From Coriobacteriaceae bacterium (GTDB lineage Bacteria > Actinomycetota > Coriobacteriia > Coriobacteriales > Eggerthellaceae): 44,137 nucleotides of DNA. The position numbers were made by a program, and so were the translations under genes. The stretch covers positions 1 through 44,137 of the forward strand of contig JAIRPR010000064.1 of the NCBI GenBank assembly GCA_031256895.1, read 5' to 3'. Below are positions 36,397-37,177 of the stretch, piece by piece (the first letter of the stretch is position 1; each line of letters begins with the position of its first letter). The notes below the pieces were generated by a model. The model was given only the letters and a program-made list of their open reading frames with translations, did no database searches and was not told the origin of the DNA.

Positions 36397-36556
36397 AAGG
36401 GGGCAGTCTTTTTCAAAAACGGGATACCGTTTCTAAACAGTATCCCGCTCTTGGGGTTTGTACTATCCCGCTTGCCCGCTGCCATAAAAAATGTTAATTT
36501 TACTGGCTTTTTGCCTGTTTTCTTATGTCAGCGGGGTTAAGGGGGCAGTCTTTTTC
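36397..36556. repeat. MITE-like AT-rich element flanked by 18-bp direct repeats and carrying two inverted repeats
   Basis: AAGGGGGCAGTCTTTTTC at 36397-36414 and 36539-36556; palindrome CGGGATACCGTTTCTAAACAGTATCCCG 36420-36447; CCCGCTGCCATAA (36475-36487) / TTATGTCAGCGGG (36523-36535). Confidence 0.6.
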
Positions 36557-36559
36557 GTA

Positions 36560-36575
36560 TGTTTCACGTGAAACA
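36560..36575. promoter_or_regulatory. parS: parS-type centromere-like palindrome, copy 1
   Basis: TGTTTCACGTGAAACA, identical to the classical chromosomal parS consensus. Confidence 0.8.
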
Positions 36576-36605
36576 TTTGTTCTTCTGCTCCGTTCATTCC
36601 CAGGG

Positions 36606-36621
36606 CGTTTCACGTGAAACA
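36606..36621. promoter_or_regulatory. parS: parS-type palindrome, copy 2 (outermost base differs)
   Basis: CGTTTCACGTGAAACA, 46 bp from copy 1, within a 46-bp tandem duplication (36561-36606 / 36607-36652). Confidence 0.75.
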
Positions 36622-36639
36622 TTTGTTCTTCTGTTCCGT

Positions 36640-37030
36640 TCATTCCCACGGCGTTGCTTCTTGCGCATACTGTGCGACCAGGCGGCCGAACACCATGGCG
36701 CCTCCAAACCCTATGCCTGAGGGGGCCTTCGTGCTGTGGTTCTTGATGTCAACGCCGTACTTCGCATAATTGCAGATGCCTCCGGCGCAGTACAGCCCTT
36801 CGATAGCTTCACCGAACACATCGATGACCTGCGATCTTTCGTTCTCCCTTAAACCGCCGGTCGTCGAGTACATGACCATGCCCGCCTCGAAGGCGTAGAA
36901 GGGCCCTTCGTCGAGAGCCTCGGGCACCAAGAAGACGACACCCCTGCCTGAAATTTCCACAGCGACACACGCGAGAGGTGTAGCGGCTTGCCGGTTTGAG
37001 GAAGATGTCGCCCCCGCACCCCGATGGCAT
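36640..37030 (-). pseudogene. C-terminal remnant of an FAD-binding (fumarate-reductase-like) flavoprotein, probably frameshifted
   Basis: GPFYAFEAGMVMYSTTGGLRENERSQVIDVFGEAIEGLYCAGGICNYAKYGVDIKNHSTKAPSGIGFGGAMVFGRLVAQYA matches flavoprotein C-termini; the upstream portion DIFLKPASRYTSRV is in another frame (36809..37030). Confidence 0.75.
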
Positions 37031-37177
37031 CTGTTATGGCATCTGTTATGGCATCTGCGCCCTCTCAGGCTGCATCGGACTTGTTGAATGCAAGAGACAA
37101 CTCATGAGCAACAGGTAAGCGTTGCGTGAGCACCTCTTGATCGGTGCCTAAACAACTCGTAGGCAACTCGTGAGCTG

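Follow-up and report, generated by a model that had tools for sequence, protein, structure and literature searches.

The DNA analysed here (44,137 nucleotides, hereafter the window) forms contig 1 in an assembly of 2.36 Mb, which is fragmented into 224 contigs and estimated as 77.5% complete; its named relatives place it in the family of Eggerthella. Between a methyltransferase-like gene and the remnant of a flavoprotein gene it holds two sites lying 46 bp apart, with zero and one mismatch to parS, respectively (Table 1). Two copies of a 46-bp unit follow each other head to tail, and the second includes the stop codon (36640-36642, minus strand) and the last codons of the adjacent open reading frame. 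This frame encodes 106 amino acids and matches positions 350-398 of the 414 in the FAD_binding_2 profile (E 2e-5); since only the C-terminal part of the profile is matched, the description as a flavoprotein remnant is correct. Site 2 starts just past the remnant stop codon, and thus the duplicated unit consists of a gene end and a parS. The sequence-only reading of this DNA had proposed an exact parS 16-mer with a near copy 46 bp away, a tandem duplication of the whole unit, and an overlap of the second copy with the 3′ end of the remnant, all of which are borne out.

Table 1. Coordinates of the site pair and of the features around it in the window.
Feature	Position	Strand	Basis and remarks
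parS site 1, exact 16-mer TGTTTCACGTGAAACA	36560..36575	.	Motif search of the window
parS site 2, one-mismatch 16-mer CGTTTCACGTGAAACA	36606..36621	.	Motif search; 18 bp 3′ of the remnant-gene stop (minus strand)
46-bp tandem unit, copy 1 (reference copy)	36561..36606	.	Compared with copy 2
46-bp tandem unit, copy 2	36607..36652	.	44/46 identical to copy 1; extends into the 3′ end of the remnant gene
Extension of the right half-site of site 1, TTTGTTC	36576..36582	.	Fits the dispersed-class consensus TYYGTNC
Extension of the right half-site of site 2, TTTGTTC	36622..36628	.	Compared with the dispersed-class half-site consensus
FAD_binding_2 flavoprotein gene remnant, C-terminal part only	36640..36960	minus	Open reading frame and profile match

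The rest of the window contains no further parS match at up to three mismatches, a threshold at which 0.12 matches are expected and two matches appear in 1 of 100 shuffled sequences. A chance origin of the matches is rejected by this expectation and by that of 0.0003 exact copies in the 3.4-Mb chromosome of a relative. The surroundings of the pair contain other repeats. The sequence AAGGGGGCAGTCTTTTTC is present at 36397-36414 and at 36539-36556, the second copy stopping 3 bp before site 1, and no third copy was found in the contigs read. A terminator-like inverted repeat, CAAAAACGGGATACCGTTT / AAACAGTATCCCGCTCTTG, occupies 36414-36453, between the methyltransferase-like gene and the pair, and past the flavoprotein remnant the 12-bp unit ATGGCATCTGTT is repeated three times in tandem (37024-37059). 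The search of Rfam gave no match at the site.

The genome from which the window derives carries 23 exact and three one-mismatch copies of parS, that is 26 copies on 17 contigs, and the reversed control pattern gives zero matches in it. Local duplications around parS are common in this genome (46, 66, 123/198 and 162 bp), the 46-bp duplication of the window being one of them. A separate arrangement is seen on contig C91 (10158-11264), where the arms of a non-coding 204-nt inverted repeat, 95% complementary, enclose 36-bp tandem repeats and a parS 16-mer stands at each outer end. The sequence-only reading had also suggested that the pair may mark a ParB nucleation locus, or a duplicated ParB site at a distance from parAB. 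It is supported in part: the parS identity and the distance from parAB find support, but a view of the pair as an isolated or duplicated site outside an origin cluster does not, given the 26 copies in the same genome and the more than 100 copies around the chromosomes of relatives.

The distribution of the copies can be followed on the complete chromosome of such a relative (G005, 3,377,915 bp), where all 108 exact copies were placed with their flanks, matching an independent count. Here dnaA lies at 2,287,340 and parB at 2,295,570, and at distances up to 20 kb from the origin the density of parS is 45 per 100 kb, falling to 12.5 out to 100 kb and to 1.3-4 per 100 kb beyond that distance as far as the opposite pole. 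The copies beyond 100 kb are indistinguishable from a uniform distribution (KS p 0.20), with no depletion at the terminus pole, where the density is 4.0 per 100 kb. Proximity to oriC, which is typical of parS and not a defining property, is therefore not a feature of the dispersed class: 55 of the 108 copies lie beyond 300 kb from the origin, with 15 near the opposite pole. A cluster of six sites, located almost exactly opposite oriC (G005:C1:610953-618348), surrounds heavy-metal P-type ATPase genes, and at least three of its gaps also hold sites in Eggerthella sinensis.

The sites are mostly intergenic. In a contiguous 1.2 Mb, for which genes were called with a purpose-made simple codon model, 45 of 51 copies fall between genes, though 84% of the DNA is coding. 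The number of sites in the gaps of this stretch, whether tandem, divergent or convergent, scales with gap length, which is unlike promoter operators. Within tandem gaps the sites lie closer to the upstream stop (median 52 bp) than to the next start (146 bp; 42 of the 57 tandem sites). Recurrent pairs are formed as well: eight exact pairs are spaced 34-36 bp, and one exact pair and several with one mismatched member are spaced 48 bp. In the 34-36-bp modules, e.g., 612756/612790 and 1161169/1161203, the inverted repeat TCCGTT..AACGGA is found between the sites, and in 48-bp modules such as 2245209/2245257 it is TGTCGCA..TGCGACA.

The number of exact 16-mers in 140 Eggerthellaceae genomes is bimodal, with 0-8 copies in most species and 12-148 in one branch. 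This branch comprises E. sinensis (about 110 exact copies), Gordonibacter and their relatives, and the genera of the Eggerthella/Gordonibacter type reach 25-148. Among named representatives, E. sinensis DSM 16107 has 113 and Gordonibacter sp. 28C 34 copies (up to one mismatch), while low-copy species are represented by Slackia exigua with 4 and Collinsella provencensis with 2. The maximum outside the family is 21 copies, among about 380 Actinomycetota in a sample of 397 genomes from the phylum. In a tree of the ParB proteins of 45 species, three changes suffice for the high-copy label, compared with a mean of 15.3 after shuffling, and the label falls almost wholly into one clade; the genus of the window is adjacent to a second high-copy genus, in a neighbouring group, a placement with weak support. 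High parS numbers are thus restricted to nearly one clade. The extended form of the motif described below (CRRA-parS-TYYG) is also found in 14 stretches of IMG/VR viral contigs, one of them with two copies, which possibly reflects phage use of the host ParB or host contamination.

An intact parS-type ParB and SMC accompany the sites in these bacteria. Each of the 42 Eggerthellaceae ParB proteins compared, from high- and low-copy species and including two of the window's genus, has R173 and G201, the two positions reported to be absolutely conserved where ParB binds parS (PMC7383237). The CTP motifs are present, and the ParA-stimulating LGRGL peptide is found in nearly all of them, in high- and low-copy species alike. 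G005 encodes a single protein of the ParB family (TIGR00180), and hence no Noc paralog. SMC is present in 137 of the 140 genomes, including all high-copy ones, so that the tolerance of parS is not explained by a lack of SMC.

The copies fall into two classes according to their flanks, since the dispersed copies carry the flank CRRA-parS-TYYG and the origin-proximal ones do not. In G005 a C at position -4 occurs in 131 of 172 dispersed half-sites versus 7 of the 32 origin-proximal ones (p 8e-9), and in both halves of 48 of 86 dispersed sites versus 0 of 16 origin sites; A at -5 and G at -7 are enriched as well. The same split is seen in E. sinensis (C at -4 in 82% of dispersed versus 38% of origin half-sites). 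Neither low-copy Coriobacteriia nor other phyla have this flank at their parS. No ParB is known to read the CRRA/TYYG extension. The genome of the window is of the dispersed type, with C at -4 in 75%, A at -5 in 80% and G at -7 in 75%.

This class assignment bears on one alternative, in which the window lies within a usual parS cluster at the origin and its two sites are a conventional pair. Such an arrangement could have gone unseen because the origin contigs are missing from the 77.5% complete bin, which contains neither parB nor a true dnaA. However, the right flanks of the pair are those of the dispersed class, dnaA and parAB are absent from the 44-kb window, and the copies are spread over 17 contigs. 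The relative of the threonine synthase gene adjoining the pair lies 469 kb from dnaA in G005, a weak indication as it concerns one gene only. An origin-cluster location is accordingly very improbable.

The flank also raises the question of which protein reads the dispersed sites. In one scenario, another DNA-binding protein recognises the extended palindrome as an operator or nucleoid site, with ParB excluded or secondary. The absence of the extension from the origin copies and the recurrence of pairs at 34-36 bp (the eight exact ones) and 48 bp would suit such a protein, but convergent gaps carry as many copies as their length would predict, every copy has exactly parS as its core, G005 has no ParB or Noc paralog, and the NBS of Noc differs from parS, so that this scenario appears improbable. 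The sequence-only reading had named a motif abundant genome-wide, as the palindrome of a different factor, as the outcome that would speak against it. The first half of this, the abundance, is borne out; the specificity residues of ParB favour ParB as the reader, while the extra flank on the dispersed copies leaves room for another factor or for a repeat element.

The core-adjacent arms of a site agree with one another more often than in shuffled pairings. At positions -1 to -3 the excess in E. sinensis is z 6.2, 3.8 and 2.4, with arms such as CGGA/CGGA, CGAA/CGAA and CCGA/CCGA, and at -4 to -9 no matching was found in the larger set of sites. Covariation on G005 alone is nearly flat, and the matching at -1 to -3 emerges in the larger set. 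An RNA hairpin or terminator was considered as the general function and rejected, as G-U and A-C mismatches on the transcribed strand number 31 and 23, without a clear excess. The excess of T-runs at the sites is slight only.

Individual sites turn over between species. In an unbiased comparison of E. sinensis with G005, a site is kept in 2 of 10 independent comparable gaps, with about 0.4 expected by chance, and in a larger set, biased to site-bearing tiles, in 11 of 24. Within the genus Eggerthella, one of seven sites is intact, two are mutated relics and four are absent. The core is far better kept than the flanks, which vary: the contiguous 1.2 Mb holds 51 exact copies, seven with one mismatch and three with two, a retention that implies selection for recognition. 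Repeats are found in the flanks of 14 of 38 dispersed sites, compared with 107 of 300 control intergenic gaps; the flanks of the remaining 24 of 38 are without a repeat match, similar to the controls, and spread of the sites within a longer repeat is rejected on this ground. No clean empty site or insertion footprint was seen in the seven comparisons inspected.

These observations allow the evaluation of a further possibility, that the dispersed copies form a REP-like intergenic repeat, palindromic and about 24-32 bp long, (CGAA)CRRA-TGTTTCACGTGAAACA-TYYG(TTCG), which multiplies and decays, its core being derived from or equal to parS and ParB binding being tolerated and not useful. A repeat of this kind would account for the extension on dispersed copies only, the matching of the core-adjacent arms beyond shuffles, the preference for gene ends, the turnover, and the local duplications and 204-nt inverted repeat in the window's genome. 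It is harder to reconcile with flanks that are unique past about 8 bp at most sites and no more repetitive than control gaps, with the better-kept 16-mer core, and with alignments devoid of clean insertion footprints. We consider a REP-like origin rather unlikely, though less so than reading by another protein.

The sequence identity, the copy numbers, the chromosome-wide placement, the dispersed-class flank, the presence of intact parS-type ParB and SMC and the restriction to one clade together argue for a different interpretation. The pair probably represents a dispersed class of ParB-binding parS that became chromosome-wide in the ancestry of the Eggerthella/Gordonibacter branch, doubled here by the 46-bp tandem duplication. 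According to this mechanism, the ancestor would have distributed parS elements over its whole chromosome, and at the window locus one element just 3′ of a stop codon would have been doubled. ParB would recognise each 16-mer in the cell as it does a near-origin parS, close into a CTP clamp and slide, and ParB at the dispersed sites may load SMC. Such chromosomes would hold ParB at many places rather than in one partition complex. The broader proposal, of a centromere extended chromosome-wide in one Eggerthellaceae branch, with ParB clamps loading at up to about 150 flank-marked parS to form a distributed partition or compaction system of possible benefit to the cell, is somewhat less than an even prospect.

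The dispersed arrangement contradicts the reported rule of tolerance, as, in transposon screens cited by a review, tolerance of an additional parS was limited to about 600 kb around the native locus or the origin (PMC7333895). In model bacteria, additional parS sites distant from the origin are harmful (PMC7333895, PMC8357415), and scattered parS are argued to provoke SMC collisions (PMC8357415); more than 100 active sites would therefore need compensation. The same review regards the reason for the clustering of parS, and the limit on the number of sites, as an open question (PMC7333895). Gut bacteria, some of them cultured, which combine at least 100 exact parS from origin to terminus with an intact parS-type ParB and SMC provide a natural experiment on both the limits of clustering and the SMC collisions. 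In addition, origin finding based on parS may mislead in Eggerthellaceae. A literature search, with most subscription papers outside its reach, found no report of comparable parS arrays.

Among the closest known systems is the chromosomal ParABS of Bacillus subtilis, Streptomyces and Corynebacterium: the 16-bp palindrome is identical, the genomes with the Eggerthellaceae sites encode canonical ParA, ParB and SMC, and a dense dnaA-parAB cluster is present in both. The literature gives up to 20-23 parS near the origin (PMC7333895) and a span of 5-40 kb for most clusters (PMC8357415), whereas the 100-148 copies here extend to the opposite pole, those of the dispersed class with an additional conserved flank. 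The Noc/NBS system of Firmicutes is similar in having a ParB-fold protein and a 16-bp palindrome scattered around the chromosome. NBS are depleted at the terminus, unlike the sites in G005. Moreover, the NBS sequence departs from that of parS at two bases (PMC7333895) and is served by a dedicated paralog with Q173/R201, while the core here is parS itself and the residues are R and G. REP/BIME elements resemble the dispersed sites as short, many-copy intergenic palindromes near gene ends which turn over between species, but here the core is invariant and identical to a known protein site, and the adjoining DNA is not repeated beyond background. The matS/MatP system of enterobacteria offers a further likeness, as a protein site repeated tens of times (matS 23 times in 800 kb; PMC3330122) organises the chromosome; matS is confined to the terminus domain, while the Eggerthellaceae sites are chromosome-wide and equal to parS.
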